Shown here: piece after piece, positions 4,503 to 33,126 of the stretch
Layout: each line of letters begins with the position of its first letter
How positions within the stretch are numbered: the first letter of the stretch is position 1
Made by a program: the position numbers and the translations under genes
From: a virus
Reading direction: 5' to 3' (one strand)
IMG/VR virus record: IMGVR_UViG_3300017730_000034
Location: 1 to 36,544 of that record
DNA length: 36,544 nucleotides
The notes under the pieces: generated by a model
The model's input: the letters and a program-made list of their open reading frames with translations, nothing else
What the model was told of the DNA's origin: nothing
Database searches by the model: none

Positions 4503-5714
4503 TTAATCTACCTCGACAACTCTCTCGTTAGTTTCAAAATACCCAGCAGAGGCGAACTCTTTCGTTGTCATCCACAATCTCTGACAGTTGCTTGGTTTTG
4601 GTTTAGGGGCACACATATCCGTCAAGACGATGTGACCATCGAAGTTGCCCTTGTTGACATAGTCCGTAGGCGCATCAAAACAGGTGCCACCAGATAAGAC
4701 CCTCTCAACGTTACGGGATTGACCTTTCTTCCATACATAAACCTTGTCCTCGTCCACTCTCGTGTCAAAGGGTATCACAGTGAATGATGCAACTTCTGAC
4801 AGTTTGTTCAACTCTGCAAAGAACTTCGATAACATAGTATCCGAAACCGAACCTGACTGATCTATACTTATTGCAACGTTGGCAACTCTCTTGGACTTGC
4901 GCCCCGCATGTATGTAGGGGTACCTACGATTGAGGCGACGAATCGTACTCGTCTTGTTCGCACGTTGTGATGCCTTGACAAAATATCTTAAAACCTTACG
5001 CCAGTCAACCTTAGTCTTGATGCTATCAAGTATCTGCTTCTTGACCGACGAGGATACACTTCCCCAAGATCCTGACTTGGATGACTCTTCTGATGCCTGC
5101 CTGACAATATCTTTAAGTCGCTCACTTGCTATCTCCTTCACTTCCTGTGGGCAATCACCCCACCCACTGTGATCATCTAAAGTTTCATCACTGTTACCTG
5201 CACCTTGCTGACCACCCTCCTGGTCTTCGTCCGGTGTACCCTTGCCACTAGAGTTTTTGTCTAGGGTATCTTTAATCGCTGCGACATACCACTCAGCGGA
5301 CTGTCCACGTGGCAGACTCTCAAATTTAGTACCCTTCTTGCCTGGCATTAACGCCATTTCTGGTAGTCCAGTAATGTGAGAGTTTATCGCTAAGTCAGTA
5401 GCAATATTCCACATTTTTGCACTCACGCTGGTATCTTGTTTGATCCACGGGGCACGATCTGTTACGTGCTTGAAAATAATGTGGTAAAATTCGTGCTTCA
5501 ATACAGCGGATCGCTCTGCGTCCGACAACTTCTCAAAGAAACCTGGATTGTAAAGCATTTCAAACTGTGCAGTTTCCTTGTTGACAGTAACACCCGCTGT
5601 AGGTATGCCATGCGATGCTCTCTTGTTAACACGGCGGGATATTGCTGCAAAGAACGGTTCCGACATTAACAGTCTAGCAGTATGAAAATTTAAGTCGAAC
5701 TCTGTCTCTGACAT
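4503..5714 (-). CDS. VWA-like protein with N-terminal metallopeptidase-like domain (DUF2201 type)
   Basis: 403 aa from ATG 5714, chosen because AAAGGAGG lies 6 nt upstream; an in-frame start 30 nt earlier has no such site. The N-terminal domain carries HEFYH at residues 74-78 and His83, a zincin-like HExxH motif. A low-complexity linker (about 155-185, Gly/Gln/Asp-rich) leads to a von Willebrand A-like domain with DQSGS (285-289), Thr344 in SGGTCFDAP and Asp366 in LTD, the expected metal-site residues. Such proteins pair with MoxR AAA+ ATPases, and the gene directly downstream of that ATPase (5774) fits. The pair may remodel or activate a protein complex; the substrate is unknown. Confidence 0.9.
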   Translation of the reverse strand: MSETEFDLNFHTARLLMSEPFFAAISRRVNKRASHGIPTAGVTVNKETAQFEMLYNPGFFEKLSDAERSAVLKHEFYHIIFKHVTDRAPWIKQDTSVSAKMWNIATDLAINSHITGLPEMALMPGKKGTKFESLPRGQSAEWYVAAIKDTLDKNSSGKGTPDEDQEGGQQGAGNSDETLDDHSGWGDCPQEVKEIASERLKDIVRQASEESSKSGSWGSVSSSVKKQILDSIKTKVDWRKVLRYFVKASQRANKTSTIRRLNRRYPYIHAGRKSKRVANVAISIDQSGSVSDTMLSKFFAELNKLSEVASFTVIPFDTRVDEDKVYVWKKGQSRNVERVLSGGTCFDAPTDYVNKGNFDGHIVLTDMCAPKPKPSNCQRLWMTTKEFASAGYFETNERVVEVD

Positions 5715-5742
5715 ATGTCGCCTCCTTTGAATCAATATAAAC

Positions 5743-5771
5743 ATTCTAAAACAAAAATTTCAAAAAGTCAA
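5743..5771 (-). promoter_or_regulatory. Sigma70-type promoter for 4101-5714
   Basis: TTGACT (5766-5771), 17-bp spacer, TAGAAT (5743-5748), squeezed between the ATPase stop and the VWA gene. Confidence 0.7.
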
Positions 5772-5773
5772 AT

Positions 5774-6841
5774 TTATTCTTCTTTCGGGTTCAACATATC
5801 AACTAGAAAATCAGAGAATGTACGACCTTCTATAGATACCTGATGGATCTTCAGTAGATTCTTTTGTTCATCTCCACCTGTCTGTCCGAGCATTGACCAT
5901 ACTTTCATGACTACCTCGGATGGCATGTTCATCATCATATACCTCGCAACATTGGTGATCTGCTCAACTGTCAACTCTTGAGTGAAAACCTTTTCTGCTT
6001 CAAACTTCGACACCAATGCAGTGTGATCGTTTATGTCGAAGTCTCTAACCTTAGACAGATCTCCGTGATCTAGTATATCCTCGATAGTTACCTGCCTGTC
6101 CATAGTCGCAACAAAATCCCTGAACGTAACGGCCGCCTCGAAACCTACGAACGCTGTGGAAAGGTGATATAACGCTATAGGGTCGTCGTACAGATCACCG
6201 GCCGTTAAACACTCATCGAGTCGTTCCCACGATCTACGGCTAGGGTATACTTTGTTTGGTTCAAAGTCCTCCTTGTGCTCCAGATGGTCGTGGTTGCCAT
6301 TAATGAAGGACCAAACCTGATTCGATATACCTGCATCCTTAGCCCAAACTAACCAATCCTCCACCGATGGTTCTATATCAAATACAGTCCATCGATCCAA
6401 CTCAGCAGGGTCCATCTCTCCAACCTGATACTGTGCACCATGTTCGCCACCGTTGACCGCTGCAAAGATGATGGTGTCATCGTGTAATGTGTGACCATTC
6501 AACTTTCGACTGTCCGTCAACTCGAAGATGCCCTGACGGACTTCAAGGGTCGCACGATCAACTTCATCGAGGAACAGTACCACGGGATGATCGCAAGCGG
6601 TCTTGAACCAATCTGGTGGATTGAACCTTGTAGCGCCTGAATCGACTGATGGCAAACCAACAAGATCCCCCTCTGTCATCTGTGAAGCACGTCGCTCTAC
6701 TACAGGCATGTCGATGTGTTTTGCATACTGGTAGACCACCGTGGACTTGCCAATACCGTGACGACCCCGAAGCAATACTGGTTTGCGAACCGCTGTAACG
6801 TGCTTGACCATTTTTCCGAAGGTTTTGAAATCGACTGCCAT
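5774..6841 (-). CDS. MoxR-type AAA+ ATPase
   Basis: 355 aa. Walker A GRHGIGKS at 26-33, Walker B VVLFLDEVD at 87-95, then 'RQGIFELTDSRKLNG', 'FAAVNGGEHG' (sensor 1) and 'AELDRW', all typical of MoxR ATPases. It is encoded just before the VWA/metallopeptidase-like protein, the usual MoxR-VWA arrangement. Such ATPases act as chaperones on protein complexes. GGAGATACATC precedes ATG 6841, and the promoter at 6897 drives it. Confidence 0.93.
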   Translation of the reverse strand: MAVDFKTFGKMVKHVTAVRKPVLLRGRHGIGKSTVVYQYAKHIDMPVVERRASQMTEGDLVGLPSVDSGATRFNPPDWFKTACDHPVVLFLDEVDRATLEVRQGIFELTDSRKLNGHTLHDDTIIFAAVNGGEHGAQYQVGEMDPAELDRWTVFDIEPSVEDWLVWAKDAGISNQVWSFINGNHDHLEHKEDFEPNKVYPSRRSWERLDECLTAGDLYDDPIALYHLSTAFVGFEAAVTFRDFVATMDRQVTIEDILDHGDLSKVRDFDINDHTALVSKFEAEKVFTQELTVEQITNVARYMMMNMPSEVVMKVWSMLGQTGGDEQKNLLKIHQVSIEGRTFSDFLVDMLNPKEE

Positions 6842-7161: not shown

Positions 7162-7484
7162 TCTACACTCCTCTGTACATACATATCACGGCCGCACGTG
7201 TCGCCTCGATACTCAACGTCGTCTGAATCATCCCCAATTCTTATAAACCCGTAATCATCATCATCCAGTAGATATAGAGCAGCATCAAACTCTGATACTT
7301 CCCTGTAGTTGTCGTACCACTTGCGCTCGCCAAAGAACAAATCTATAGTTCCGTCATCCTTTTCAATTCTTGAACACGCACTATCCAACATCGATTGTAC
7401 GTTAGGTTCTAGTTTTGCTATCGCACTAAAAACTTCAGTCGCTTCTGGACTCATTCTCAAGTAAATATCTGATCTATATCCCAT
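7155..7484 (-). CDS. Conserved phage protein, 109 aa
   Basis: The start MGYRSDIYLRMSPEATEVFS matches a widespread phage family beginning 'MGYRSDV', which has no known function. The C-terminal half is strongly acidic (LLDDDDYGFIRIGDDSDD). It overlaps 7474-7698 upstream and 6958-7161 downstream, so it is translated in a chain. Confidence 0.85.
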   Translation of the reverse strand: MGYRSDIYLRMSPEATEVFSAIAKLEPNVQSMLDSACSRIEKDDGTIDLFFGERKWYDNYREVSEFDAALYLLDDDDYGFIRIGDDSDDVEYRGDTCGRDMYVQRSVEW

Positions 7485-7698
7485 TATCTAACTCCACTCT
7501 TTCTATTAGGTTGTAATCAATAGTGCTAACCCGGTCGCCATTGGGTGCACTTCGGTTAACCCACATAACCTTAGCGCATGTATAATCATAACTAGGAACG
7601 CTGGCGGCCGTGTTTGCCTTAAACGTAACCATTCCCATGAAGACCCCTAAATCGACTGGGTTCAAATATTTGTTTCTTACCAAGTCGCCGACTATCAC
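7474..7698 (-). CDS. VGDLV-family barrel-like protein, 74 aa, GTG start
   Basis: I start it at GTG 7698 (VIVGDLVRNKYLNPVDLGVF), preceded by GGAGGT; a longer frame to 7764 runs over a separate small gene. 'VGDLVRNK', 'GMVTFKAN', 'KVMWVN' and the C-terminal 'RVELDNGI' match the array proteins at 8.1-10.3 kb. Its start overlaps the stop of the 36-aa membrane peptide. Confidence 0.75.
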   Translation of the reverse strand: MIVGDLVRNKYLNPVDLGVFMGMVTFKANTAASVPSYDYTCAKVMWVNRSAPNGDRVSTIDYNLIERVELDNGI

Positions 7699-7805
7699 TT
7701 GCGACCTCCAAAAAGTTGAGACCAAGCGTATCCGCCCATACCGAACCCCAACAACCACCACCAAATCGGGTTAGCATTGCTGATTATCTCACCGACTATT
7801 TCCAT
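7695..7805 (-). CDS. Membrane microprotein, 36 aa
   Basis: ATG 7805 gives MEIVGEIISNANPIWWWLLG, then FGMGGYAWSQLFGG and a basic end. One Trp/Gly-rich span (about 13-27). It overlaps the end of 7796-8029 by 10 nt and hands over to the GTG of the next gene. The stop region carries the GGAGGT used by that next gene. No strong site of its own; coupling is likely. Confidence 0.5.
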   Translation of the reverse strand: MEIVGEIISNANPIWWWLLGFGMGGYAWSQLFGGRK

Positions 7806-8029
7806 ATGGTCACAAGGTTGCCATAATAGTTGTCAAATATCTGCACAAGACATTCATAATTGCCTGACATCATTACTTTTGAGATTGTGTCTAATTTGTT
7901 CTCGCTGAATCCCAATTGTCGCCCTAGTCTCCTGTGTAATGCCATGAGCATATGGGCATTACCTTCAGGACCGTTAAGATCAACTTCGATTTTCTTTTGG
8001 GGCATCTCGGATCTGGACTTAATTGCCAT
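7796..8029 (-). CDS. Conserved phage protein, 77 aa
   Basis: Starts MAIKSRSEMPQKKIEVDLNG. 'KKIEVDLNGPEGNAHMLM' recalls a common phage family ('KIEVDLTGPxGNAF') of unknown role, followed by a helical C-terminal half. GAGAGGAGAGCAC precedes ATG 8029. First gene after the promoter at 8060. Confidence 0.8.
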   Translation of the reverse strand: MAIKSRSEMPQKKIEVDLNGPEGNAHMLMALHRRLGRQLGFSENKLDTISKVMMSGNYECLVQIFDNYYGNLVTIWK

Positions 8030-8059
8030 GTGCTCTCCTCTCTGCTTTGTTATGTTTCT

Positions 8060-8088
8060 ATTAGATCAAAATTAAAAACAAAATGCAA
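8060..8088 (-). promoter_or_regulatory. Sigma70-type promoter for 6958-8029
   Basis: TTGCAT (8083-8088), 17-bp spacer, TCTAAT (8060-8065). The -35 region and first transcribed bases match those at 9638. Confidence 0.7.
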
Positions 8089-8095
8089 ATAAAAA

Positions 8096-8115
8096 TGAAA
8101 TGTCCAATAATTTCA
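8096..8115 (-). terminator. Weak AT-rich hairpin after the barrel-gene array
   Basis: TGAAAT/ATTTCA (6 bp, 8-nt loop) followed by TTTTTATTT on the minus strand. It starts in the stop codon of the last array gene. A related hairpin follows the gene at 10743. Confidence 0.35.
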
Positions 8116-8280
8116 AGATCTTGGAATAACCTCAAGGTACATCTCAGTCAACCATTCTTTACCACCACCGTTCCAAATAACCTTGAACATCCCCTCGTCT
8201 TCATCCTCCCCTATGATTACTCCATACTGAGTTTTGTAATAAGTGGAATCTCTATCTCTTACTAAATCACCTTTTTTCAT
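8113..8280 (-). CDS. VGDLV-family barrel-like protein, 55 aa (array gene 11)
   Basis: ATG 8280 overlaps the previous stop as ATGA. Starts MKKGDLVRDRDSTYYKTQYG, then 'GVIIGEDEDEGMFKVIWNGG' and C-terminal 'YLEVIPRS'. Same three-strand layout as the other array proteins but with an ATG start and a diverged tail. Last gene of the array. The small barrel fold is inferred from the pattern; function is unknown. Confidence 0.75.
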   Translation of the reverse strand: MKKGDLVRDRDSTYYKTQYGVIIGEDEDEGMFKVIWNGGGKEWLTEMYLEVIPRS

Positions 8281-8444
8281 ACTACCACCTCGTAGTCTCT
8301 GCCGCTGTCCCAGGTTGCAACACCTTCGGCGGGATCGATAATCTTAATCATTGAGACGGTATCAGTAATGTCAACAGCGAGAACAAAAACTGGCGGTTTT
8401 GACTCATTATACATTTGATGCCTCACCAAATCACCGACTTTCAC
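8277..8444 (-). CDS. VGDLV-family barrel-like protein, 55 aa (array gene 10)
   Basis: GTG 8444 lies inside the end of the previous gene (14-nt overlap). Starts VKVGDLVRHQMYNESKPPVF and ends 'DYEVVV'. 'VFVLAVDIT' and 'SMIKIID' form the central strands. The conserved 'hEVh' tail carries the ribosome-binding sequence GAGGTGGTAG for the next gene. Confidence 0.75.
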   Translation of the reverse strand: MKVGDLVRHQMYNESKPPVFVLAVDITDTVSMIKIIDPAEGVATWDSGRDYEVVV

Positions 8445-8625
8445 TGATTACCTCCAAGTGTATTGGGTTGATTGGTCTAACCCAGTTCTTCTCCATCCAG
8501 TACACATTCTTAAAAGTAACTTCACCTTTATCACGATAGTCCGAAACGATAACACCAATCGGTTCGCTGCCAATGTTCATGCTCTGTCCGAAGTAGTTCC
8601 ACCTTACTATATCTCCTGCCTTCAT
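8431..8625 (-). CDS. VGDLV-family barrel-like protein, 64 aa (array gene 9)
   Basis: I start at ATG 8625 (MKAGDIVRWNYFGQSMNIGS) because TTGGAGGC lies just upstream, inside the preceding gene. 'GVIVSDYRD', 'FKNVYWMEKNW' and the tail 'LEVISESR' match the family. The last 14 nt also encode the first residues of the next gene. Confidence 0.8.
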   Translation of the reverse strand: MKAGDIVRWNYFGQSMNIGSEPIGVIVSDYRDKGEVTFKNVYWMEKNWVRPINPIHLEVISESR

Positions 8626-8777
8626 AATGCCTCCAACCAACGCTTACTAACTCTAGTTTTATTGCCATGATGTTTGGGAGTGTATACCAGCCAGTCACCA
8701 TCGTGACGTGTGATGTCCTTACTCAACAGTATGCAGAGTCCGTAGATCTTGTGTCTTACCGTGTCACCGACTTTCAC
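8622..8777 (-). CDS. VGDLV-family barrel-like protein, 51 aa (array gene 8)
   Basis: GTG 8777 gives VKVGDTVRHKIYGLCILLSK, with 'GDWLVYTPKH' in the middle and the end 'KRWLEAL'. Its tail lacks the usual 'VISESR' and its stop overlaps the next start as ATGA. It has no ATG-started form of useful length, but the 14-nt overlap and GGAGGT site are as in its neighbours. Confidence 0.7.
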   Translation of the reverse strand: MKVGDTVRHKIYGLCILLSKDITRHDGDWLVYTPKHHGNKTRVSKRWLEAL

Positions 8778-8952
8778 TGATAACCTCCAGTGCTTTGTAG
8801 CTCCACAAGCGTTTGCCGGATGAAGTGACGACGTGAATGTCTGGGTTTAAGAAGGGAGACTTATCATAACTCGGACAGGTGGCCATGTAACCAATGCCTA
8901 CCACAATACCTGTGTGTCCTTGTCCGTTCTTCACCAAGTCACCGACTTTCAC
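8764..8952 (-). CDS. VGDLV-family barrel-like protein, 62 aa (array gene 7)
   Basis: GTG 8952, start VKVGDLVKNGQGHTGIVVGI, tail 'LEVISESR'. Between these, 'PDIHVVTSSGKRLW' forms the last strands. Its start and end both use the shared junction sequence. A longer frame to 9006 only translates the junction of the upstream gene. Confidence 0.8.
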   Translation of the reverse strand: MKVGDLVKNGQGHTGIVVGIGYMATCPSYDKSPFLNPDIHVVTSSGKRLWSYKALEVISESR

Positions 8953-9094
8953 TGATAACCTCCAATCCAATTGTGTAATTGTCAGCATCTTCCACTGTAC
9001 CATCATCGACCCACTTGATCAAAGTTTCGTGAGCGTTAGCGACAATTACTAATGCTACATGCCCATTAGACATTACCAAGTCACCGACTTTCAC
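8939..9094 (-). CDS. VGDLV-family barrel-like protein, 51 aa (array gene 6)
   Basis: GTG 9094, start VKVGDLVMSNGHVALVIVAN, then 'TLIKWVDDGTVEDADNY' and the tail 'LEVISESR'. One of the shortest complete members, so it gives the minimal fold: strand VGDLV, strand ALVIV, strand LIKWVDDG, strand LEVI. Confidence 0.8.
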   Translation of the reverse strand: MKVGDLVMSNGHVALVIVANAHETLIKWVDDGTVEDADNYTIGLEVISESR

Positions 9095-9287
9095 TGAGAA
9101 CCTCCAAATCTGTACACCAAGCAGGTCCAATTAAGGCAGTTGGCAATGTTGGTCTTGGTTCATTCCACAAAACCTTGAATAGCCTTCTCTCCATGGGATG
9201 GCGTAATCGTCTGCGATCTAGGTCTGCCACAATAACACCAGTTCGCTCCTGAATCTCTTTTTCTCTTACTAAATCACCGACTTTCAC
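9081..9287 (-). CDS. VGDLV-family barrel-like protein, 68 aa (array gene 5)
   Basis: GTG 9287, start VKVGDLVREKEIQERTGVIV, then 'RRLFKVLWNEPRP' and the tail 'LEVLSESR'. It has a longer basic loop (DLDRRRLRHPMERR) than its neighbours, which could contact nucleic acid; that is a guess. Standard 14-nt junctions at both ends. Confidence 0.8.
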   Translation of the reverse strand: MKVGDLVREKEIQERTGVIVADLDRRRLRHPMERRLFKVLWNEPRPTLPTALIGPAWCTDLEVLSESR

Positions 9288-9438
9288 TGAGAACCTCACA
9301 ACCGCTTGTAACCCACCACTTTGTATCGCCCTCGTTAGTGCGGTAAACTTTGACTGTGCCGCCCTGAGAATTGATCTGTAACACGATCCCATTGCAAGTC
9401 CAAGATCCGTAATACGCCACAATATCACCCACCTTCAT
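9274..9438 (-). CDS. VGDLV-family barrel-like protein, 54 aa (array gene 4)
   Basis: ATG 9438 replaces the usual GTG. Starts MKVGDIVAYYGSWTCNGIVL, then 'GGTVKVYRTNEGDTKWW' and the tail 'CEVLSESR'. The junction with the upstream gene is diverged in sequence but keeps the 14-nt overlap. Confidence 0.8.
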   Translation of the reverse strand: MKVGDIVAYYGSWTCNGIVLQINSQGGTVKVYRTNEGDTKWWVTSGCEVLSESR

Positions 9439-9613
9439 TGACAACCTCCAAGTCATAGTTCCAAACGTTGTGACCCATTGTACCATCTGTCCATAGAATG
9501 TCAAATACTTTATTTATTGTCGTTGCACATAGCGGGTCGAACACTTCTTTGTATACGAAACCCTTGCGCTCTGAAAAGCAGTGTTGGACCAAGTCTCCGA
9601 TTTTTATATTCAT
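9425..9613 (-). CDS. VGDLV-family barrel-like protein, 62 aa (array gene 3)
   Basis: ATG 9613, start MNIKIGDLVQHCFSERKGFV, then 'NKVFDILWTDGTMGHNVW' and the tail 'LEVVNEGG'. First array gene downstream of the internal promoter at 9638. Its tail differs in protein sequence from 'LEVISESR', yet still encodes the next ribosome-binding site and start. Confidence 0.8.
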   Translation of the reverse strand: MNIKIGDLVQHCFSERKGFVYKEVFDPLCATTINKVFDILWTDGTMGHNVWNYDLEVVNEGG

Positions 9614-9637
9614 CTTGCCTCGCTTTGTTATGTTTCT

Positions 9638-9666
9638 ATTAAACCAGAACGTGAAACAAAATGCAA
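9638..9666 (-). promoter_or_regulatory. Sigma70-type promoter inside the array
   Basis: TTGCAT (9661-9666), 17-bp spacer, TTTAAT (9638-9643). It drives the nine array genes to its left. Confidence 0.7.
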
Positions 9667-9673
9667 ATAAAAA

Positions 9674-9781
9674 TCAAAAGTTGAATAAATTCACCACTTT
9701 GTAGTATATGCTGACCAGTCCATGTACCCCGATTGCATCACCAAGAACAAAACCTATCGCTACCAATACAAACTCTTTCAT
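9674..9781 (-). CDS. Membrane microprotein, 35 aa
   Basis: ATG 9781 overlaps the stop of 9778-9975 as ATGA. The product MKEFVLVAIGFVLGDAIGVH plus 15 residues has one or two short hydrophobic stretches with a Gly-rich face. AAGGAAGCGGAGG precedes the start. It splits the barrel array into two blocks. Function unknown. Confidence 0.55.
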   Translation of the reverse strand: MKEFVLVAIGFVLGDAIGVHGLVSIYYKVVNLFNF

Positions 9782-9975
9782 GCCTCCGCTTCCTTCAGTG
9801 GACAAATTTGACGTACTTCTTCAATTAACAAGTCCTCGATGAGATTGTCGTCCATCCCAGTTGCAAAGTATAGTTTCTTCTTTGCCCTATCAAAACTTAT
9901 CTTGCGATCTAGGATCATCCTCGAATACTCTTTTACGACCCTGTGCGTTAGGGACATAATCAAATCATCCATCAT
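9778..9975 (-). CDS. Unknown helical protein, 65 aa
   Basis: Starts MMDDLIMSLTHRVVKEYSRM; helical and charged (DRAKKKLYFATGMDDNLIED). GAGGT lies 6 nt before ATG 9975. It overlaps the preceding array gene by 11 nt. It does not belong to the barrel family; function unknown. Confidence 0.7.
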   Translation of the reverse strand: MMDDLIMSLTHRVVKEYSRMILDRKISFDRAKKKLYFATGMDDNLIEDLLIEEVRQICPLKEAEA

Positions 9976-10117
9976 GTATTACCTCAATCTGCTTATTATC
10001 TTCATGAACGTCTTGTTTCGTACCACAGTTCCACAATACTGTATGCCTACCCCAACCGTGTCTTGTGATTACAAGACCTATCCAATCAAAGCGCCTCACT
10101 ACATCACCGACTTTCAC
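9965..10117 (-). CDS. VGDLV-family barrel-like protein, 50 aa (array gene 2)
   Basis: GTG 10117, start VKVGDVVRRFDWIGLVITRH, then 'HTVLWNCGTKQDV' and the tail 'IEVIHDG'. Entered through a standard 14-nt junction; the exit junction has changed because an unrelated gene (9778-9975) follows. Confidence 0.75.
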   Translation of the reverse strand: MKVGDVVRRFDWIGLVITRHGWGRHTVLWNCGTKQDVHEDNKQIEVIHDG

Positions 10118-10271
10118 TGATTACCTCCAACTGATCACCCTGAAAGGGATAAGTGTGTGAACCTACCAAAACTGTGTATGTTTGTGAATAGTGACTTCGG
10201 AACGTCTTCTTCAGAATCATCCCGACCATACCATTGGCAGCAACACACCTTACTATATCACCGATGTTCAT
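10104..10271 (-). CDS. VGDLV-family barrel-like protein, 55 aa (array gene 1)
   Basis: ATG 10271, start MNIGDIVRCVAANGMVGMIL, then 'TYTVLVGSHTYPF' and the tail 'LEVISESR'. First member of the array. Its start overlaps the end of the membrane protein at 10258, whose last codons (VGDTDEHR) cover the same bases. Confidence 0.8.
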   Translation of the reverse strand: MNIGDIVRCVAANGMVGMILKKTFRSHYSQTYTVLVGSHTYPFQGDQLEVISESR

Positions 10272-10464
10272 CTGTGTCTCCAACTTCTGGACTCAGCATC
10301 CACTCGCTAGAATTGTCTACTGTACCTTGAATGCAAAGGCATGTCTCGCTCGGACAGTCTTCGCAGTGCTCCGAGCGTATTGTTTCAGTGTTCGTAACAA
10401 ACAAGATCATCACAAGCATTAAAGTCAATGCTATCGTTGGCGCTATGACGTAAACTAACCTCAT
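10258..10464 (-). CDS. Membrane-anchored Cys-rich protein, 68 aa
   Basis: Starts MRLVYVIAPTIALTLMLVMI, an N-terminal membrane anchor or signal peptide (about 4-24), followed by 'CEDCPSETCLC', a tight cluster of four Cys, and an acidic tail. If exported, the Cys would form disulfides; if cytoplasmic they could bind metal. Overlaps the zinc-finger gene upstream by 4 nt. Confidence 0.7.
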   Translation of the reverse strand: MRLVYVIAPTIALTLMLVMILFVTNTETIRSEHCEDCPSETCLCIQGTVDNSSEWMLSPEVGDTDEHR

Positions 10465-10661
10465 CTCCCTACACTCCTAGCGATCTCTACAGACCCGACA
10501 TACTGATATGCACCTTTGTTGAACGCTGGTGCTGTACACTTTGCTTTCCTGGCAACCTCTACCCTAGCATTTGCCTCGCCACAATCTAAACAAGTCTTGT
10601 ATCCTAGATTCTTTCTTGCTACTGGATACTCATCCCAACAGTCAACACAAATTGCAATCAT
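10461..10661 (-). CDS. Small zinc-ribbon protein, 66 aa
   Basis: Starts MIAICVDCWDEYPVARKNLG. Cys5-x2-Cys8 and a second CxxC ('TCLDCGEAN') about 16 residues later make a four-Cys zinc site like that of DksA/TraR-type phage proteins, but the coiled coil of DksA is missing. It may bind nucleic acid or RNA polymerase (inference). First gene after the promoter at 10689. Confidence 0.75.
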   Translation of the reverse strand: MIAICVDCWDEYPVARKNLGYKTCLDCGEANARVEVARKAKCTAPAFNKGAYQYVGSVEIARSVGR

Positions 10662-10688
10662 TGTTTTCTCCGTCGTTGTTATGCTTAC

Positions 10689-10717
10689 ATTAGATCAAAA
10701 CTTAGAATAAAAGTCAA
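10689..10717 (-). promoter_or_regulatory. Sigma70-type promoter heading the zinc-ribbon and array operon
   Basis: TTGACT (10712-10717), 17-bp spacer, TCTAAT (10689-10694). Confidence 0.75.
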
Positions 10718-10742
10718 ATAGAAAATAAAATGTTCAATAATT

Positions 10743-11474
10743 TCAGGAGTTTTTTGGAATTTTGACTGCTTTGAGATCTTTCTCACAAGCATAGATTGGT
10801 TCTTTAATGTCAGAACCCACTGGCAATATGCTGTAAACCTTACCACCCTTAGCGGCACGATAGATTGGGCGAGCGTTTGACGTAACCACAAGTGCAAGCA
10901 CCCGTTCGCCTCGTGCTGCCTTTCGATGAAGTTTATATCTCATGTTGGTGGTTCGGTTCGAACTGTATTCTGGTGCCATGTCCAATCTATTTGTAGTACG
11001 CACTTGTACCACTTGCCCTGGTTTAAACCGAGGTGTTGATCTGTGTTCTTGTATTACCTTGTCCGCATACGGGTTCATACACATTCTAGTAAACTCGTAC
11101 TTGGACAAGTTGTGCCCATCTTTGTCTTTTAAAACCTTTTCTGCGATGAGTGTCCAATACCTTTGTGTAATATCAGGGTGATTAGTGTAATACTCTGCAC
11201 AAATTACTGCGATTTCTCTAAGATCAGAGTCATACTTTTTGCGCCACTCCTTCGAAGCAGATAAAACCTCACTAGAACACGCTGATTCAATCCTAGATAG
11301 GTGGTTTTTTTGCTTTTCAGATAAGGTTTTGTTGCGCTCCACTTGACCCATTATACTTTTAAGAAAACCGTCCCACGGTACAAATCGGGTATGGCCAATC
11401 TCTCCCACTTCATACAATGTTCGCAGGTTGCCTATACAATCTTCAATTCTCTTTATCATCTTCGCCTCTTTCAT
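10743..11474 (-). CDS. Unknown protein with C-terminal barrel-like part, 243 aa
   Basis: The N-terminal half is helical (IGNLRTLYEVGEIGHTRF, SEKQKNHLSRIE). The C-terminal part from about residue 150 has 'FKPGQVVQVRTTNR', basic 'YKLHRKAARGERVLALVV' and further strands, resembling an SH3/KOW-like or RNA-binding domain. ATG 11474 gives MKEAKMIKRIEDC; ATG 11459 has the better-spaced AGAGG site and may be the true start. Promoter at 11493. No family recognised. Confidence 0.8.
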   Translation of the reverse strand: MKEAKMIKRIEDCIGNLRTLYEVGEIGHTRFVPWDGFLKSIMGQVERNKTLSEKQKNHLSRIESACSSEVLSASKEWRKKYDSDLREIAVICAEYYTNHPDITQRYWTLIAEKVLKDKDGHNLSKYEFTRMCMNPYADKVIQEHRSTPRFKPGQVVQVRTTNRLDMAPEYSSNRTTNMRYKLHRKAARGERVLALVVTSNARPIYRAAKGGKVYSILPVGSDIKEPIYACEKDLKAVKIPKNS

Positions 11475-14432: not shown

Positions 14433-14624
14433 TTATACGTGTGGTGCACCGAAGGGATATGCCGATACGAGCACCACTCTTGAGAATTTAATAGATCCCC
14501 CGTACTTCTCGGTTAAATCCATCACCTTCTTATCACAAATCTTTCTGGTCGCTATGATCTCTTGACTTCTATCTGATCCGACACGATAGCGAACCCTGAC
14601 TAGATCATCTGGCATTTTTTTCAT
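14433..14624 (-). CDS. Unknown basic protein, 63 aa
   Basis: Starts MKKMPDDLVRVRYRVGSDRS; alternating strands and helices with 'RKICDKKVMDLTEKYGG', no recognised motif. It overlaps the end of the nuclease-like gene by 4 nt and closes the dam operon. It could be a small partner of that operon. Confidence 0.7.
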   Translation of the reverse strand: MKKMPDDLVRVRYRVGSDRSQEIIATRKICDKKVMDLTEKYGGSIKFSRVVLVSAYPFGAPHV

Positions 14625-15148
14625 TTTAGATTCTTTTGAATCGCTTCGAAAATTACCTTTTCCATGTTAAGACCCTTGTAATACTTGTCAGAAGATACAT
14701 CGTCAGCAACAACGTTGACAATCGACTGGTCTGATACCCTGCACTTAACATTGGCATCATCGGGGAACATTTCCAAGTCTTCGAAATTGACCACGCCCAC
14801 CCTTCTCTTGCCTGTGTCTACAAGAATCATCTTGTCAAATGTTTTGTCTGGTGTGCCCAGATTATTGCCTCTGTGGTTTCTGAGTATCAACTTGTTGGAC
14901 CAAACGGTGTTAGGTTGAAATATCTTACCTTGCATCTTGCACTCATACCGAAGTCCATCGGATCCTTCGAAGTCCATGCCATCAGCAGTATCGCCAACAT
15001 ACTTTAACTTGCCATCACTGTACTTATCAATTGACATTTCAATAATCTCTGTACGCAGTGGCAAGGTCTGGTTCCTCTTGAGTGTCTCGACTGAATCAAT
15101 TACACCAAAGACTTTACTCCACTCTACATCATTTTTAAGATCAATCAT
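14621..15148 (-). CDS. Putative PD-(D/E)XK restriction endonuclease-like protein
   Basis: 175 aa, starting MIDLKNDVEWSKVFGVIDSV. 'ADGMDFEGSDGLRYECKMQG' holds Asp59, Glu69 and Lys71 in the D-x9-E-x-K arrangement of restriction-type nucleases. 'KMILVDTGKRRVGVV' could be the next strand of that core. It overlaps the end of the Dam-type methylase by 8 nt, so the two are co-translated, an arrangement expected for a restriction-modification pair. Cleavage specificity and activity are inferred. Confidence 0.75.
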   Translation of the reverse strand: MIDLKNDVEWSKVFGVIDSVETLKRNQTLPLRTEIIEMSIDKYSDGKLKYVGDTADGMDFEGSDGLRYECKMQGKIFQPNTVWSNKLILRNHRGNNLGTPDKTFDKMILVDTGKRRVGVVNFEDLEMFPDDANVKCRVSDQSIVNVVADDVSSDKYYKGLNMEKVIFEAIQKNLK

Positions 15149-16037
15149 TACTGTTCCTCTCGTAATTTGTTATTAACAACTCTTTGCGCTCTTTTTGCGC
15201 TTCTGAATATACCTTACTAGAACGCATTGTATATGTCAAGTCCCAATCATTAAAATAATAATCTGAAAACCTTTTTCTTAGAACTTCATTTGAATTATAA
15301 GTGATCATCCAATCATGCTCACACTTTACCGTGTCTTCATAGAATCTCATGTGATCAAACCCTGAATGCATGTCTCCGTTCTTACCGTATAGGTCATCCT
15401 TAATATCATAAGGAGGATCGAGGAAGATGAAGCAATCATCTTGACCCTTTGCACTGAGCAAGAACTCATAATCAAAGTTCGTAATTGTCCACCTCTTGAT
15501 TAGTTTAGAGTATGCTGGCAACTTGTCGATGCCAGTCATACTGAAGTTCTGCTCCGATGCCTGCTCCGAGAAAGAACTGCTCTCACCCAGTCCCGAAAAA
15601 CTACACTTGTTTAGTATGAAAAAGTACACCGCTTTCGTAAAGTCATCCACGTTAGCAATCTCTGATTTCGCCTTATTAAACAAGTCCCTGTGGTTTACAA
15701 TGTTCTCAAGAATGGAACTGTCCCATTGCGACTTGTCCACTTTTGCCTTCCGAAGAGGTTTAGACACATACTCAATAGGACTCTTGATCCTTGCTAACTC
15801 CTGGTGTAGTTCAGGGCCCTTATCTCTTAGTTGGACCCAGAAGTTGTATAGGTTGTAGTACGCATCATTGACCCAGACCTTCGTATCTGGCCTGGTCTGG
15901 GTTACATGCAACGCCATTGAACCACCTCCGAGGAATGGTTCCCTGAACTCACTGAAACTCTTCGGTAAGTCTGGACTTAGTTTCTTGATTGCTCTCGACT
16001 TACCGCCTGGGTAACGTAATGGTGTCTTCAATGACAT
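15141..16037 (-). CDS. dam: Dam-type (D12 class) DNA N6-adenine methyltransferase
   Basis: 298 aa from ATG 16037 (MSLKTPLRYPGGKSRAIKKL), with AGGAG 9 nt upstream; an ATG two codons earlier is too close to that site. RYPGGKS at the N-terminus and FREPFLGGGS (31-40) bind S-adenosylmethionine; DPPY (207-210) is the catalytic motif. Members of this class usually methylate GATC, but specificity cannot be read here. It probably protects phage DNA, including from the nuclease-like protein encoded next. Confidence 0.93.
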   Translation of the reverse strand: MSLKTPLRYPGGKSRAIKKLSPDLPKSFSEFREPFLGGGSMALHVTQTRPDTKVWVNDAYYNLYNFWVQLRDKGPELHQELARIKSPIEYVSKPLRKAKVDKSQWDSSILENIVNHRDLFNKAKSEIANVDDFTKAVYFFILNKCSFSGLGESSSFSEQASEQNFSMTGIDKLPAYSKLIKRWTITNFDYEFLLSAKGQDDCFIFLDPPYDIKDDLYGKNGDMHSGFDHMRFYEDTVKCEHDWMITYNSNEVLRKRFSDYYFNDWDLTYTMRSSKVYSEAQKERKELLITNYERNSND

Positions 16038-16061
16038 TTGCATATACTCCTATGCTTGTGA

Positions 16062-17118: not shown

Positions 17119-17147
17119 AATATATCCTATCACCAATCTTTTGTCAA
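17119..17147 (-). promoter_or_regulatory. Sigma70-type promoter for 16758-17091
   Basis: TTGACA (17142-17147), 17-bp spacer, TATATT (17119-17124). The -35 overlaps the stop of the gene at 17144. Confidence 0.8.
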
Positions 17148-17389
17148 TGTTTTTTTTCTGCTCTGTGGATTATTCTTAAAAACTTCGCCCTAATCCAACT
17201 TGCCTCGCCTGTCGTCAGTTTTATGAAGCAGTGATACTCGTCCTTATGCCACGCATAGTCTTCAACACGAGGGAAGTCAATCATCCTCTTCTTGTTGGTT
17301 ATTAATCCCACCTCGCCCCGAGCACCCACGGGCCCAGTTATCTGGACGAGATCCCCAATATCAAATTCTTGTCTGTGCACGTGCTTCAA
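17144..17389 (-). CDS. Barrel-like (SH3/KOW-like) protein, about 81 aa
   Basis: 'FDIGDLVQITGPVGARGEVG' places the family strand near the N-terminus, followed by 'YHCFIKLTTGEASWIRAKFLRII'. The start is TTG 17389, overlapping the previous stop as TTGA, or GTG 17380; neither has a strong site. The Gly-rich turn is more KOW-like than in the array members. Confidence 0.7.
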   Translation of the reverse strand: MKHVHRQEFDIGDLVQITGPVGARGEVGLITNKKRMIDFPRVEDYAWHKDEYHCFIKLTTGEASWIRAKFLRIIHRAEKKH

Positions 17390-18624: not shown

Positions 18625-18828
18625 CTAGGTTGCGTTAATACCTCGGCGTCCTAGTTTCTGCACATGTTCAGACCTCAAGTGTATCTTGTCGCCAGCGGAA
18701 TTAAGCACTATTGCAGTTTTCATGAGTTTATCATGACTCAACAGCAGTGCAGGTCCGTACCATTTGCAATGGTCATAGTCTCCAAGAAAATTGTCGTTGC
18801 GATACCTTACCAGGTCCCCGACTTTCAT
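18625..18828 (-). CDS. VGDLV-family barrel-like protein, 67 aa
   Basis: I start at ATG 18828 (MKVGDLVRYRNDNFLGDYDH) with AGAGGTATC before it. Then 'GPALLLSHDKLMKTAIVLNS' and the tail 'VQKLGRRGINAT'. It is a close relative of the array proteins located 8 kb away, suggesting dispersal of cassettes. Its start overlaps the stop of 18825-19019. Confidence 0.75.
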   Translation of the reverse strand: MKVGDLVRYRNDNFLGDYDHCKWYGPALLLSHDKLMKTAIVLNSAGDKIHLRSEHVQKLGRRGINAT

Positions 18829-19540: not shown

Positions 19541-19978
19541 TTACATCACATGAACTAACTCAATTTCAAAATTGAGGTTTTTTCCAGCCATTGGGTGATT
19601 AAAATCTACAGTAACACTATCATCATCAATTGAGTTGATAATTCCCCGAATTGGTTGATCGCCGACCTGACCTTCTACAACGATTCCCGTTTCGAAACTA
19701 AAATCTTCTGGAAACTGTTGCTTGTCAATGCTTTGTACTGCCTCCTCGTTATGCGGTCCATACGCTTGCTCTGGAGCAATCTGAACGGACTTTACTTCTC
19801 CGATTCTCATTCCAGATACGGCGGTGTCAAATCCGGGGATCATCATACCGGCGCCGACTGTAAAATTGATGGTTTCTCCACGGTCGTATGAACTGTCGAA
19901 CACTGTCCCGTCTTCAAAAGTACCTTTGTAGTGTACTTGAACTTCTCTTCCTTCTTTTGCGATTGTCTTTTTTGCCAT
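19541..19978 (-). CDS. FKBP/SlyD-type peptidyl-prolyl cis-trans isomerase
   Basis: 145 aa, starting MAKKTIAKEGREVQVHYKGT. 'VHYKGTFEDGTVFDSSYDRG' and 'IPGFDTAVSGMRIGE' are FKBP core motifs. The insert plus 'VDFNHPMAGKNLNFEIELV' is characteristic of the SlyD/FkpB-like group, which combine proline isomerisation with chaperone activity. No His-rich metal tail is present. It fits the set of folding proteins (GroEL, Hsp20) encoded in this genome. AAAGGAG precedes ATG 19978; promoter at 20073. Confidence 0.93.
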   Translation of the reverse strand: MAKKTIAKEGREVQVHYKGTFEDGTVFDSSYDRGETINFTVGAGMMIPGFDTAVSGMRIGEVKSVQIAPEQAYGPHNEEAVQSIDKQQFPEDFSFETGIVVEGQVGDQPIRGIINSIDDDSVTVDFNHPMAGKNLNFEIELVHVM

Positions 19979-24755: not shown

Positions 24756-25190
24756 TCACCCGATACTTACCGAGATTGGTTTCGCTTCTGGGCGCTGTGG
24801 GACTTTAACTGTCAACAAACCGTTCTCAAACTTTGCATCTGCTTTGGACATGTCAAGGTTATCGTCGTAATTCACATATGTCTTCACGAAGTTTCTCCTT
24901 GCAATCCTACTTCTTTTTCGGTTGGTCTCATCGACTTCACCAGCAACTGTAATAGTTCGCTTTCCGGGTTGCACATCGACCTTTAACTCGTCACGGGCAA
25001 ACCCAGCGAGGGCAAATTCAAGGATCGTAGATCCGTCATCATCTCGATAAATATCCACAACTGGATAACCCTTTGTCGAGCGTTTGATAGCACCATCCAT
25101 AAAGTGCTGGTCCCCGAAGAGGTTGTCAAAAACCTCTTCGAAATATTTGTGACCCAATAGTCCGGGTCGGTGTAGTGTAATTGCGTTCAT
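24756..25190 (-). CDS. hsp20: Hsp20 family small heat-shock protein
   Basis: 144 aa from ATG 25190 (MNAITLHRPGLLGHKYFEEV), with AAGGAGG 8 nt upstream. 'YPVVDIYRDDDGSTILEFAL-AGF' starts the alpha-crystallin domain; 'KFENGLLTVKVPQR' is the conserved end (A-x-x-NGLL-x-V-x-V-P), followed by 'PISVSIG'. IbpA-like size. It holds unfolding proteins for refolding; many marine T4-like phages encode one. It has its own promoter (25263), a possible ROSE-like leader and a strong terminator. Confidence 0.93.
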   Translation of the reverse strand: MNAITLHRPGLLGHKYFEEVFDNLFGDQHFMDGAIKRSTKGYPVVDIYRDDDGSTILEFALAGFARDELKVDVQPGKRTITVAGEVDETNRKRSRIARRNFVKTYVNYDDNLDMSKADAKFENGLLTVKVPQRPEAKPISVSIG

Positions 25191-25198
25191 GTTATATT

Positions 25199-25251
25199 CC
25201 TCCTTATTAAGCAAGTTACGCACTATGTCGAAGACCCCGAAGCGATCTTCG
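25199..25251 (-). promoter_or_regulatory. Possible ROSE-like RNA thermometer in the hsp20 leader
   Basis: The leader folds into CGAAGA/TCTTCG (25229-25251) and, next to the start, CTTGCTT pairing with AAGGAGG across loop AAT (25199-25215) with one G-G mismatch. TTGCT facing the ribosome-binding site is the mark of ROSE elements, which control hsp20 genes in many bacteria. Confidence 0.5.
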
Positions 25252-25262
25252 ATCATACCTAT

Positions 25263-27568: not shown

Positions 27569-29146
27569 CTACTCCTCAATAATGGCATAATTCGTAGTCA
27601 AAAGAGTTCCCGCTGCTGATACAGCGTTCCTTAGAGCGTTCTTAGTTACCTTCGCAGGATCAATTATTCCCGATGTGTACATGTTCGTTGCCACACCATC
27701 GAGAAAATTAAATCCCACATCGAATTGCTCGGCATCAATAATCTTATCGACATCCTGGTAGGTATATCCAGCGTTTTGTGCCATCGCTGCGATGGGTGAC
27801 TGCAGAACATGAAGGAAGATTTCTGCAGCATATTGTTCATCCTCAGTCAATTCTAACGGCGATACGTCCTCTGAGAGCGATTTAGATATGCGATAGAGGG
27901 TAAGACCCCCGCCCGGAACTAAACCCTCTTGTTGAGCAGATCTGACCGCCTCTAGTGCGTCTTCTATTCGGTGCTTCTTCTCCACCATCTCCACTTCGGT
28001 AGGCGCACCAACTCTGATAATAGCCACACCGCTAGACAATCTTGTTATTCTGTTCTGTAGTGCCTCGGCGTCGTCCATGGATTGAGATGTATTGATTTGC
28101 GTTTTTATGTCTTCGATTCTAGAGTGCATCTCACCGTGATCTCCGCCGCCGCCAACGATAATGGTACCGTACTTAGATATTTCAATCGTGTGGCAGGTAC
28201 CAAGGTCATTAATGGTTACGTCACGCACCTGATCTCCGAGCATCGTCCTAAAATATTTAGCGCCGGTGGCGATTGAGAGATCCTCCATCATTGATCGACG
28301 TTCTTCGCCATAACTCGGAGACTTGACTGCAGTGACCTTCATTGATCCACGCACAGAGTTCATGATTAGTGCCGACAATGCTTGTCCCTCAACACTGTCA
28401 CAAATAAAGACTACAGGTTTCTGTTCTCTTGCGGCGATCTCCAAGACTGGCAAAATAGTCTGCACTTGATCGACTTGTGCATCGCACAGGAACAGTAGCG
28501 GGTTCTCATACCTACAGATAGATCTCCTCTCGTCAGTTATAAAATAGTTTGATAAATATCCAGATTGAAACCTAAAACCCTCAACCAAGTCAAGCGTTGT
28601 TTCGGTGGAGCGTCCGTCCTCAATTGTAACAGACCCCCCTTTACCAACTTTGTCCACTGCTGTCGCTACAAGATCTCCAATGACCTGGTCGTTATTCGCA
28701 GAAATCTTTGCGACGAATGCGACGTCATCTGCGCTAGAAATAGGTCTAGATATCTCTTCTATCTTTTCGCACACCATATCACATACTTTGTCTAGTCCAC
28801 GCTTAACCTCGACCGGACTAAGACCTTTATCAATAAGATCTAGTGACTTTGAAAATATCGCCCTCGCAAGTATGGTAGATGTAGTAGTGCCGTCACCTGC
28901 GTCTGAATTGGTCTTTTCCGACGCCTGCTTTACAATCTCGACTGCTGCGTCCTGGAAAGGGTCGTCAAGACTCACAAACCTAGCAACCGTTACGCCATCT
29001 TTTGTGATTATTGGTTTACCATCCTTATTCCTAAGAATGACGTTGCGACCCTTGGGTCCATATGTTGACGCTACGTTGTCGGCGAGTTTGTTGACGCCGT
29101 CAAGCATTAGGCGATGGAGTTCCTTACCGTCAGAAAATTGCTTCAT
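27569..29146 (-). CDS. groL: GroEL-type chaperonin
   Basis: 525 aa, somewhat shorter than bacterial GroEL. 'NVASTYGPKGRNVIL' and 'ITKDGVTVAR' (Asp50), 'GDGTTT' (84-89), and 'EGLVPGGGLTLYR' form the ATP site. The apical domain between about 185 and 370 is diverged, and the Gly-Gly-Met C-terminal tail is absent. No GroES gene is nearby, so it may use host GroES or work alone, as proposed for some phage chaperonins. Strong own promoter (29181). Confidence 0.95.
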   Translation of the reverse strand: MKQFSDGKELHRLMLDGVNKLADNVASTYGPKGRNVILRNKDGKPIITKDGVTVARFVSLDDPFQDAAVEIVKQASEKTNSDAGDGTTTSTILARAIFSKSLDLIDKGLSPVEVKRGLDKVCDMVCEKIEEISRPISSADDVAFVAKISANNDQVIGDLVATAVDKVGKGGSVTIEDGRSTETTLDLVEGFRFQSGYLSNYFITDERRSICRYENPLLFLCDAQVDQVQTILPVLEIAAREQKPVVFICDSVEGQALSALIMNSVRGSMKVTAVKSPSYGEERRSMMEDLSIATGAKYFRTMLGDQVRDVTINDLGTCHTIEISKYGTIIVGGGGDHGEMHSRIEDIKTQINTSQSMDDAEALQNRITRLSSGVAIIRVGAPTEVEMVEKKHRIEDALEAVRSAQQEGLVPGGGLTLYRISKSLSEDVSPLELTEDEQYAAEIFLHVLQSPIAAMAQNAGYTYQDVDKIIDAEQFDVGFNFLDGVATNMYTSGIIDPAKVTKNALRNAVSAAGTLLTTNYAIIEE

Positions 29147-29180
29147 TATTACCTCTCTTTGTTATACTTTGATATTTATT

Positions 29181-29209
29181 ATAATAAACACGTTTTGCTT
29201 GTTTGTCAA
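29181..29209 (-). promoter_or_regulatory. Strong sigma70-type promoter for groEL
   Basis: TTGACA (29204-29209), 17-bp spacer, TATTAT (29181-29186). No heat-shock CIRCE repeat is seen. Confidence 0.8.
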
Positions 29210-29216
29210 GGGTTTT

Positions 29217-30443
29217 TTAAACTTGAGTTGAGTTTTGCCCAATGCGCCTAAGTGGTTTTGACATTATCCTTATGGATAAACTGGCAGACTTTATAATCGT
29301 GATTCCATGCACTTCTTCTGTTTCAATCTCTACCCCCATGGATTTAAGATAATCCTCCTTGGTGGTTCCCTCAGGGGGATTTACAAAATTAATCTGCGTG
29401 ATCTCCGCTGCAGTAAATGGTATTTTGTGTCCATTGGGTCCAAACCTACTGTGGAATACAGGTTCGTGCTGACCTGTAGGTAATTCAGGTTTTTGATATA
29501 TACTATCAGCAGAGATAGTGACTTCAGACTCCCCCGTCTTCTTAACATTGAAATCACCAAACACTAAATATTCTGCTGCGTCAGGACCTGAACCATAGAC
29601 CATTGCAGTCCTCCTGGCGGACCGTTTCTTCATAGGTCGGTGGAATCCAGCAGTTGATCTTTTTGGACCATCCTTAGAAAACAATATATCCATACGCCAC
29701 TTTCTAATTGCCGCCTCCATGAAGTCTGATGCGTCTTTTTTATCACTAGAAACAAGGTTTTTATACGCTTCGAATCCCGGTGCCTTGTGGGAAATTCCCG
29801 TGCCAGGCACAATTCCATCCTTACTGGCAGCGTAAAAATCAGACATGCCAAAGCGTTCCGGATTCTTCACGAAACCTCCCACATTTTCATACCTACTTCC
29901 ACCCATAACAATAGTACCTGGTGTTTTCATACTTATCCCAGCATCAAAAAGTTTTCTATTCAAGTCGTTAAGGTACTCTTCTTCGATAGCATCCGACTGC
30001 TCTGAAGCAGTACGTAAATACTTAACTCTCTTACCGGGTTGAACGCCTGTTAAGGTTATGTTTTCGTCGTCTAAAAAAACCGCACCGGTGAGAAACTTTG
30101 GTCTCTGGTTGCCTAGTCTGTTGGCGTCTGAAATTAAAGAAATTAACTCTTCCTGACTGTAGGATTTCTTGGTGAAATAAAACCTCAAGACCAACCCATC
30201 TGCCGACTTGAATTGTTTGGCGAATATACGTCCCGATGATACGGACTGCAGTACCTTGATGGTCTTGTAGTTTTTGTACTTCCCGAGAGCATCAGAGACG
30301 ATTGGGAATACCAACTTCTTCAGTTTGCTTGCAGAGTACAGTGTCGGGTCAACGTAATAAAAACTCCTTACGCTCCTTACCGTACCCTCTGAAACGATTG
30401 ACATCATTTCGACCATCTGCTCTAGTAGTACTTGTCTATTCAT
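29217..30443 (-). CDS. Unknown large protein, 408 aa
   Basis: Starts MNRQVLLEQMVEMMSIVSEG. Mixed content, with 'FGDFNVKKTGESEVTISADS' and 'FTAAEITQINFVNPPEGTTK' in the second half and a basic C-terminus. It has no membrane span, and no motif I recognise. Its size and place between ClpP and GroEL suggest a morphogenesis or virion protein, but this is only context. 4-nt overlap with the ClpP gene. Confidence 0.82.
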   Translation of the reverse strand: MNRQVLLEQMVEMMSIVSEGTVRSVRSFYYVDPTLYSASKLKKLVFPIVSDALGKYKNYKTIKVLQSVSSGRIFAKQFKSADGLVLRFYFTKKSYSQEELISLISDANRLGNQRPKFLTGAVFLDDENITLTGVQPGKRVKYLRTASEQSDAIEEEYLNDLNRKLFDAGISMKTPGTIVMGGSRYENVGGFVKNPERFGMSDFYAASKDGIVPGTGISHKAPGFEAYKNLVSSDKKDASDFMEAAIRKWRMDILFSKDGPKRSTAGFHRPMKKRSARRTAMVYGSGPDAAEYLVFGDFNVKKTGESEVTISADSIYQKPELPTGQHEPVFHSRFGPNGHKIPFTAAEITQINFVNPPEGTTKEDYLKSMGVEIETEEVHGITIIKSASLSIRIMSKPLRRIGQNSTQV

Positions 30444-32788: not shown

Positions 32789-33126
32789 TATATATCTTCA
32801 TCTCCTCTCTCAATTAAGTCGAAAACAAAGTCAATATCACACTCAGTTAGACCGAGATCTTGCAGGATTTGGTTACCTTCCTGCATGTCCTCCTTTGTCT
32901 TTGCTATCTTTCTCTTACCGATTCTTGCACTCCTCTCTTTCACTTCTGTCACAAATGATATCAAGTTGGGGTCGTTACTTATGTATCCAGTTATGATCGC
33001 TCTGAAAAACTGTGACTTGGATAACCCATCTCGGCGCAACCTCACCACTAGGTCCGCATGTCGCTTGTCAGTGTCCGAGAACATTATTGCCTTCTCGTCA
33101 CGACCGTATCCGCCACGATAACTCAC
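32788..33126 (-). CDS. Conserved phage protein, possible RHH-type, 112 aa
   Basis: GTG 33126 overlaps the stop of the IMPDH-like gene and is preceded by GGGGGTAAG. Reads [20 protein letters not shown], then 'VVRLRRDGLSKSQFFRAIIT', a strand plus helix like a ribbon-helix-helix, and a basic helical tail. I recall close relatives in marine myoviruses, without a known role. Confidence 0.82.
   Translation of the reverse strand: MSYRGGYGRDEKAIMFSDTDKRHADLVVRLRRDGLSKSQFFRAIITGYISNDPNLISFVTEVKERSARIGKRKIAKTKEDMQEGNQILQDLGLTECDIDFVFDLIERGDEDI

Follow-up and report, generated by a model that had tools for sequence, protein, structure and literature searches.

A putative cassette array of small barrel proteins, joined by a dual-coding sequence, in T4-type phages

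Why should a virus carry eleven related genes for very small proteins in a row, many of them joined by the same short overlap? The question is raised by a virus fragment of 36,544 bases (IMG/VR record IMGVR_UViG_3300017730_000034), which in its whole length is termed the window. Positions 8113-10271 of its minus strand hold eleven paralogues of 50-68 amino acids (aa), all of one barrel family, interrupted by two small open reading frames (ORFs) that do not belong to the family. Comparison with related loci makes it highly probable that the locus represents an expandable cassette array in a T4-type phage, with cassettes turning over at a standard joint. As read from sequence comparisons, cassettes are gained, lost, replaced and reordered at the joints, and this happens faster than in the surrounding genes.

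The array has nine direct member-to-member junctions. Neighbouring genes overlap by exactly 14 nt at seven of these, the overlap sequence being GTGAAAGTCGGTGA at six and ATGAAGGTGGGTGA at one. The other two display a 4-nt ATGA overlap, at 8622/8625 (m8/m9) and 8277/8280 (m10/m11). The members (m1 to m11), the two interrupting ORFs (x1 and x2), the junctions and a further family member are as follows.

10104-10271, minus strand: cassette m1, 55 aa, ATG start
9965-10117, minus strand: cassette m2, 50 aa, GTG start, 14-nt overlap with m1
9778-9975, minus strand: x1, 65 aa, non-family, no Pfam match, 11-nt overlap with m2 (ATGATGGATGA, which resembles a joint of another type)
9674-9781, minus strand: x2, 35 aa, hydrophobic, no Pfam match, 4-nt overlap with x1
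9425-9613, minus strand: cassette m3, 62 aa, ATG start
9274-9438, minus strand: cassette m4, 54 aa, ATG start, 14-nt overlap with m3
9081-9287, minus strand: cassette m5, 68 aa, GTG start, 14-nt overlap with m4
8939-9094, minus strand: cassette m6, 51 aa, GTG start, 14-nt overlap with m5
8764-8952, minus strand: cassette m7, 62 aa, GTG start, 14-nt overlap with m6
8622-8777, minus strand: cassette m8, 51 aa, GTG start, 14-nt overlap with m7, ATGA overlap with m9
8431-8625, minus strand: cassette m9, 64 aa, ATG start
8277-8444, minus strand: cassette m10, 55 aa, GTG start, 14-nt overlap with m9, ATGA overlap with m11
8113-8280, minus strand: cassette m11, 55 aa, ATG start
10098-10129, minus strand: junction m1/m2, TGGAGGTAATCAGTGAAAGTCGGTGATGTAGT, matches the extended consensus
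9425-9438, minus strand: junction overlap m3/m4, variant ATGAAGGTGGGTGA
9274-9287, minus strand: junction overlap m4/m5
9075-9106, minus strand: junction m5/m6, matches the extended consensus
8933-8964, minus strand: junction m6/m7, matches the extended consensus
8758-8789, minus strand: junction m7/m8, matches the extended consensus
8425-8456, minus strand: junction m9/m10, matches the extended consensus
7474-7698, minus strand: further family member downstream of the array, beginning VIVGDLVRNK, GTG start, marginal profile match (E 0.008)

An earlier sequence-only reading had described eleven paralogues of 50-68 aa in a row with only two other genes between them, and the coordinates confirm this. 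The count holds for the array; the family itself is bigger in the window. The member at 7474-7698 has family homologues, 46-49% identical, in other loci, and the profile finds more distant relatives at 17144-17380, with homologues in loci L077, L125 and L135, and at 18625-18828. It had also been proposed that seven junctions share a 27-nt sequence. Seven do share the exact 14-nt overlap, but identity over 27 nt is loose, with GAGGT instead of GGAGGT at m4/m5 and the variant overlap at m3/m4. The suggestion that most members are hidden from simple ORF calling did not survive: all are in a plain ORF list that allows GTG and TTG starts, several with an over-long start. The extended junction consensus, allowing up to three mismatches, has five matches in the window, all inside the array, and none in 100 dinucleotide shuffles.

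The joint is read in two frames. Its consensus across relatives is TGGAGGT.ATCAGTGAAAGTCGGTGATTTGGT; one frame ends a protein with L-E-V-I-S-E-S-R-stop and the next frame begins another with V/M-K-V-G-D-L-V. The GGAGGT motif provides Glu-Val codons and also a Shine-Dalgarno site, 5 nt ahead of the start codon. Where a follower overlaps by 14 nt, 72% of members have a tail that ends in SR; where no family member overlaps, 7% do. The tail therefore comes from the joint and not from the fold. At position 3 (KVGD), valine is encoded by GTC in 83% of overlapped starts, in 66% of starts that have no upstream family member and in 18-22% elsewhere. This excess suggests that many stand-alone starts descend from joints.

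Relatives were collected in two ways. A search of viral contigs with the joint pattern gave at least 119 stretches, and the neighbouring MoxR-type ATPase used as query gave 80 related loci with flanks; array members lie near the ATPase in most of these 80. An iterated profile built from the eleven window proteins detected 2383 family ORFs in 200 loci at the cut-off of E<0.01, and none in reversed or shuffled versions of the same ORFs. Without iteration, 1041 ORFs were found at E<=0.001. As the loci partly overlap, members that are unique by DNA context number 1818. Among 1098 distinct neighbouring pairs, the exact 14-nt overlap is found in 811 and a 4-nt overlap in 113. The bodies are strongly diverged: 1841 members fall into 1327 clusters at 60% identity, mostly singletons.

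All 22 large contigs (159-293 kb) carry arrays, with 8-29 members each, these contigs having been chosen because they contain either the joint or the ATPase next to it. Altogether they have 92 copies of a shortened joint, on one strand only per contig, and none of the reversed pattern. The T4-type gp23 capsid family is above the cut-off in 23 of 24 related large contigs, and the window itself encodes a T4 RNA ligase 1 domain protein. UvsX/RecA-like recombinase matches are present in 22/22 large contigs, with a model that matches cellular RecA too. Among 50,697 records of cultured phages, the array proteins tried had no match by tblastn at E<=1, no record matched most of the joint beyond chance level, and protein and DNA searches found no relatives of a 408-aa backbone protein, any hits being at chance level. 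The joint is present in eight GTDB stretches. As all eight are in metagenome-assembled genomes, they are taken as possible stray phage contigs and not as hosts. No description of such arrays was found in the open-licence literature, which omits most subscription journals.

Differences between close relatives carry the argument for turnover. Cassettes and their order differ in relatives whose ATPases are 81-86% identical. In pairs with 90-99% ATPase identity, 104 of 252 array members (41%) are shared, compared with 113 of 154 backbone genes (73%). In the same pairs the order is inverted in 81/316 array comparisons (26%) versus 16/347 backbone comparisons (5%), and adjacency is retained in 21/40 versus 74/83. 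The contrast in sharing and adjacency grows at 80-90% ATPase identity. Homologous cassettes seldom keep their neighbour: two clusters show distinct downstream neighbours in 13/13 and 11/11 cases, and the mean ratio is 0.80. Homologues of m8, for example, are 86-90% identical in L121-L124, where they lie beside other neighbours.

One group of loci, with ATPases 95.8-100% identical, displays individual events. Between two homologous cassettes there is a slot that is vacant in L147 and L150 but occupied in L151 and L146, by a different cassette in each; homologues of both inserts are found elsewhere in the sister genomes. In addition, cassette group 66 is located upstream of the ATPase in L147 but downstream of it in L146, and cassette group 73 is present on both sides of the ATPase in L150. 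The sequence-only reading would have failed had related genomes kept the same cassettes always in the same order; in the 80 related loci both cassettes and order vary. Independent tests in these loci back its proposal that cassettes are inserted, deleted or swapped by exchange at the junctions, with frame and translational coupling preserved; homology of the 27-nt sequence is a candidate for the molecular route.

Sequence comparison also indicates that unrelated proteins can enter the same joints as barrel cassettes. The profile does not recognize the body that follows the joint in 18 of the 428 cases in which the downstream ORF is complete, and 15 of 432 upstream bodies are likewise unrecognized, several being short fragments. 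Among these bodies there may be barrels that have diverged. The most clear-cut foreign body is at L172 4916-5176, where VKVGD is followed by a complete GIY-YIG nuclease domain (PF01541, E 1e-16) and then by EEIINESR, with standard joints on both sides. A second family, with the motif WLG[YF]VFCE..FRW, is represented at L060:545-802 and in L073 (minus strand, at about 3244 on the reverse strand); one of the two has the joint tail and the other the joint leader. The pair suggests that a foreign gene can acquire either flank of the joint.

The proteins themselves are predicted to have a KOW/Tudor-like SH3 barrel fold. The barrel guessed from the letters of the microproteins is backed by a confident AlphaFold2 model of m11, a five-strand SH3-like barrel (pLDDT 93); the model of m7 is also a five-strand barrel (pLDDT 83), with loop 22-37 less certain. 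In an alignment of 58 diverse members, G4 and D5 are invariant, K2, L6, V7, G20 and the joint-encoded tail are conserved and the remaining columns are variable. The dN/dS ratio in the bodies is 0.17 over 59 homologous pairs and 0.20 with one pair per cluster, with a median of 0.16 and one pair in 59 above 1; purifying selection thus acts on the bodies as read in the annotated frame. Pfam and PHROG searches gave no significant family match for the window members. No curated Pfam KOW or Tudor family is above its cut-off, and one of the 58 members touches KOW at E 0.014. Profile searches of solved structures pointed weakly to the KOW domains of Spt5, NusG and ribosomal proteins, the best E of 1.6e-4 belonging to an entire chain that contained several weak repeats.

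A fixed fold with variable surfaces would be consistent with different partners for different members. The cassette proteins may thus represent a variable set of small binders, and the KOW-like fold points to parts of the host transcription and translation apparatus, or to nucleic acids, as the likeliest targets. KOW domains bind RNA polymerase, ribosomes and RNA, and for this reason the foremost guess, by analogy and somewhat short of an even chance, is that the proteins disturb host gene expression or turn it to the use of the phage. A point that counts against it is that Foldseek places Spt4/5 KOW and Tudor domains (TMq ~0.75) and NusG nearest with matches that are all weak, the best PDB E being 0.017 and none below 0.001. 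The binding role, taken alone, is therefore a guess, and a tentative one. Anti-defence binding by the cassette proteins is about as open as the reading in terms of host gene expression. Host takeover, tentatively proposed in the sequence-only reading, is a conjecture.

How the cassettes move can be approached from the positions at which similarity ends. Alignments of arrays end at joints in 62% (left) and 70% (right) of cases versus 20% expected for uniform ends, an approximately 3-fold concentration. One pair, L133_21 and L141_17, is 96% identical between two junctions and unrelated outside them. In 158 equal-length cassette pairs with >=80% nucleotide identity, the identity continues for 300 nt or mostly ends within 15 nt of the start or stop. 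Several findings weigh against exchange through the joint itself. Backbone genes used as a control also lose identity within 15 nt of a gene boundary in 28 of 111 cases; the boundary test on pairs is therefore not decisive alone, and ordinary phage mosaicism, together with selection, accounts for part of the pattern. At >=85% nucleotide identity there are 58 partial-body and 50 whole-cassette matches, and L135_7 and L136_22 look chimeric; such frequent partial-body matches mean that bodies, too, undergo exchange or are conserved locally. Breakpoints would likewise be enriched at joints if selection acted among random joins, and constraints of coding and ribosome binding can account in part for the conservation of the joint. 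Strong homogenization of joints within genomes, another candidate effect, was rejected as weak when tested, joint likeness being barely higher within genomes (0.792) than between them (0.779).

The findings on breakpoints bear directly on an explanation by mosaicism of the kind found in T4-type hyperplastic regions. Recombination, illegitimate or homologous, would occur anywhere, only joins at gene boundaries would survive, and the joint would be passive and not a recombination substrate. The gene-end breaks in the backbone and the partial-body matches are what this explanation predicts, and T4-type phages are known to shuffle small genes, according to the work on promoter early stem-loops (PeSLs) as cited in PMC4503421. 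The concentration of alignment ends at joints and a turnover far above that of neighbouring genes are harder to reconcile with it. It is possible, if on the doubtful side, and as it concerns the molecular route only, it overlaps with the cassette-array explanation: the joint would still make each join viable, the observable system is identical and the route alone differs.

Two other explanations deny the array its mobility or its use. Ordinary tandem duplication and divergence would proceed by slow birth and death with no movement of cassettes, the joint being the cheapest coding of a KVGDLV start, a ribosome-binding site and a stop. Each part of the joint indeed has a coding or translation role, the bodies are as diverged as such a history would make them, and the joints lack strong homogenization within genomes. 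Near-identical cassettes between unrelated neighbours, order inversions among close relatives, different cassettes in the same slot, unrelated bodies between standard joints and a GTC bias at position 3 beyond coding need alone all argue to the contrary. Going by the aligned loci, duplication is largely refuted by the tests of order and neighbours, and it is improbable. Alternatively, cassettes could spread through clean insertion and not through any need of the phage, as selfish or near-neutral passengers. Clean insertion at joints and extreme, mostly singleton diversity would fit, whereas purifying selection on the bodies and the presence of arrays throughout the large contigs, given how these were chosen, would not; such accumulation is very improbable.

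The preferred explanation remains the expandable cassette array. Each cassette would encode a KOW/Tudor-like SH3 barrel of 50-70 aa. The short and nearly invariant joint, TGGAGGTNATCAGTGAAAGTCGGTGATTTGGT, would do four jobs: it would close one protein (LEVISESR-stop), supply the Shine-Dalgarno site, provide the start codon and open the following protein (V/MKVGDLV). Cassettes could therefore be strung together in any order without loss of frame, stop, ribosome-binding site or translational coupling. Exchange may occur through short homology at the joint, helped by the phage recombination machinery, such as the UvsX-like gene; a joint of ~30 nt is a plausible substrate for phage recombination. 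A changing set of proteins might help against changing hosts or defences.

Among described systems the nearest is the modular shuffling by PeSLs in T4-type phages (Arbiol et al., 2010; Comeau et al., 2014; both as cited in PMC4503421). According to that source, repeated short linkers between small genes of T4-type phages enable shuffling and have a role in hypervariable regions; gene gain, loss and reordering between relatives are found for the present cassettes as well. PeSLs, however, are described there as intergenic units of a promoter and a stem-loop. The present joint is dual coding, with a stop, a ribosome-binding site and a start, and joins one protein family within one operon. The stem-loop terminator and promoter of a PeSL have no counterpart at the joints: no terminator-like stem-loop was found in window positions 7400-10900, and sigma-70 promoter-like sites there are close to the shuffle expectation.

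The arrays also resemble, in logic only, those of integrons. In an integron, too, one standard joint serves for the gain, loss and reordering of array members, and a promoter precedes the array. The joint described here differs in lying within coding sequence shared by two genes, and most cassettes have the same fold. Neither an attC-like structured site nor an integron integrase was noticed, although no search was aimed at them. With the KOW, Tudor and PWWP barrels (Spt5 KOW, the NusG C-terminal domain, ribosomal L14e/L24) the cassette proteins share five strands, a GD-x-V start and a G-[IV]-[IV] second strand; they differ as stand-alone proteins of 50-70 aa with surfaces dissimilar among themselves. 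Small SH3-like proteins of cultured phages (phrog_9237, phrog_1690 and BFVD A0A7T5QXY7 of Cronobacter phage A24) are alike in size and fold and give weak profile matches. BFVD also holds paralogous barrel proteins with 31-34% identity (A0A516M733, A0A516MB64, A0A516MBH7, A0A516M749, A0A516LC03 and A0A516LBZ1). Their neighbouring accession numbers suggest one or two viral genomes, and they may represent a cultured phage with a similar array.

A promoter-like repeat of 85 nt, with the motif TTGCAT...TAATAGAAACATAACAAAG, is found three times around the array.

9622-9706, minus strand: promoter-like repeat just before the start of m3, the first cassette of a nine-member run, with the motif 20 nt upstream
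8044-8128, minus strand: second copy, at the array end
10673-10757, minus strand: third copy, upstream of the region, more diverged (60% identical)

The element precedes cassettes in L122-L124, and in L122 and L123 it lies at the same distance ahead of a different cassette.

Other parts of the window encode recognizable proteins. The MoxR-type AAA ATPase adjoins a DUF2201 metallopeptidase/VWA-like protein at 4503-6841 (Pfam). At 14621-16043 there is a D12-class adenine methyltransferase (PF02086), and an adjoining 175-aa ORF that overlaps its end is possibly a restriction-like partner. A GroEL-like ORF (by eye) lies near a Clp protease family protein (PF00574) at 27569-31123; together with two further ORFs assigned by eye, one FKBP-like at 19541-19978 and one small heat-shock-like at 24756-25256, they make unusually many folding genes for a phage. 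An IMP dehydrogenase/GMP reductase family gene (PF00478, E 8e-95) is at 33123-34121.

The gain and loss of the many tiny phage genes of unknown function are poorly understood. In these arrays the exchange unit, its boundary and the junction sequence can be read in scores of genomes, and the route, whether homology at the joint or selection among random joins, is therefore directly testable. On a broader and more speculative view, which has a little less than an even chance, the arrays would be an open-ended phage protein library. Acting both as translation signal and as recombination site, the dual-coding joint would let virus populations keep building new operons of small binders and captured domains out of a common stock in the environment. 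Such a library would be the viral equivalent of an integron array, but without the need for an integrase of its own. The small fold is shared by over 1300 distinct protein clusters that evolve under purifying selection; these would be a natural library of phage-host binders, and the standard joint is an example of an operon design in which gene order is free without breaking translation.

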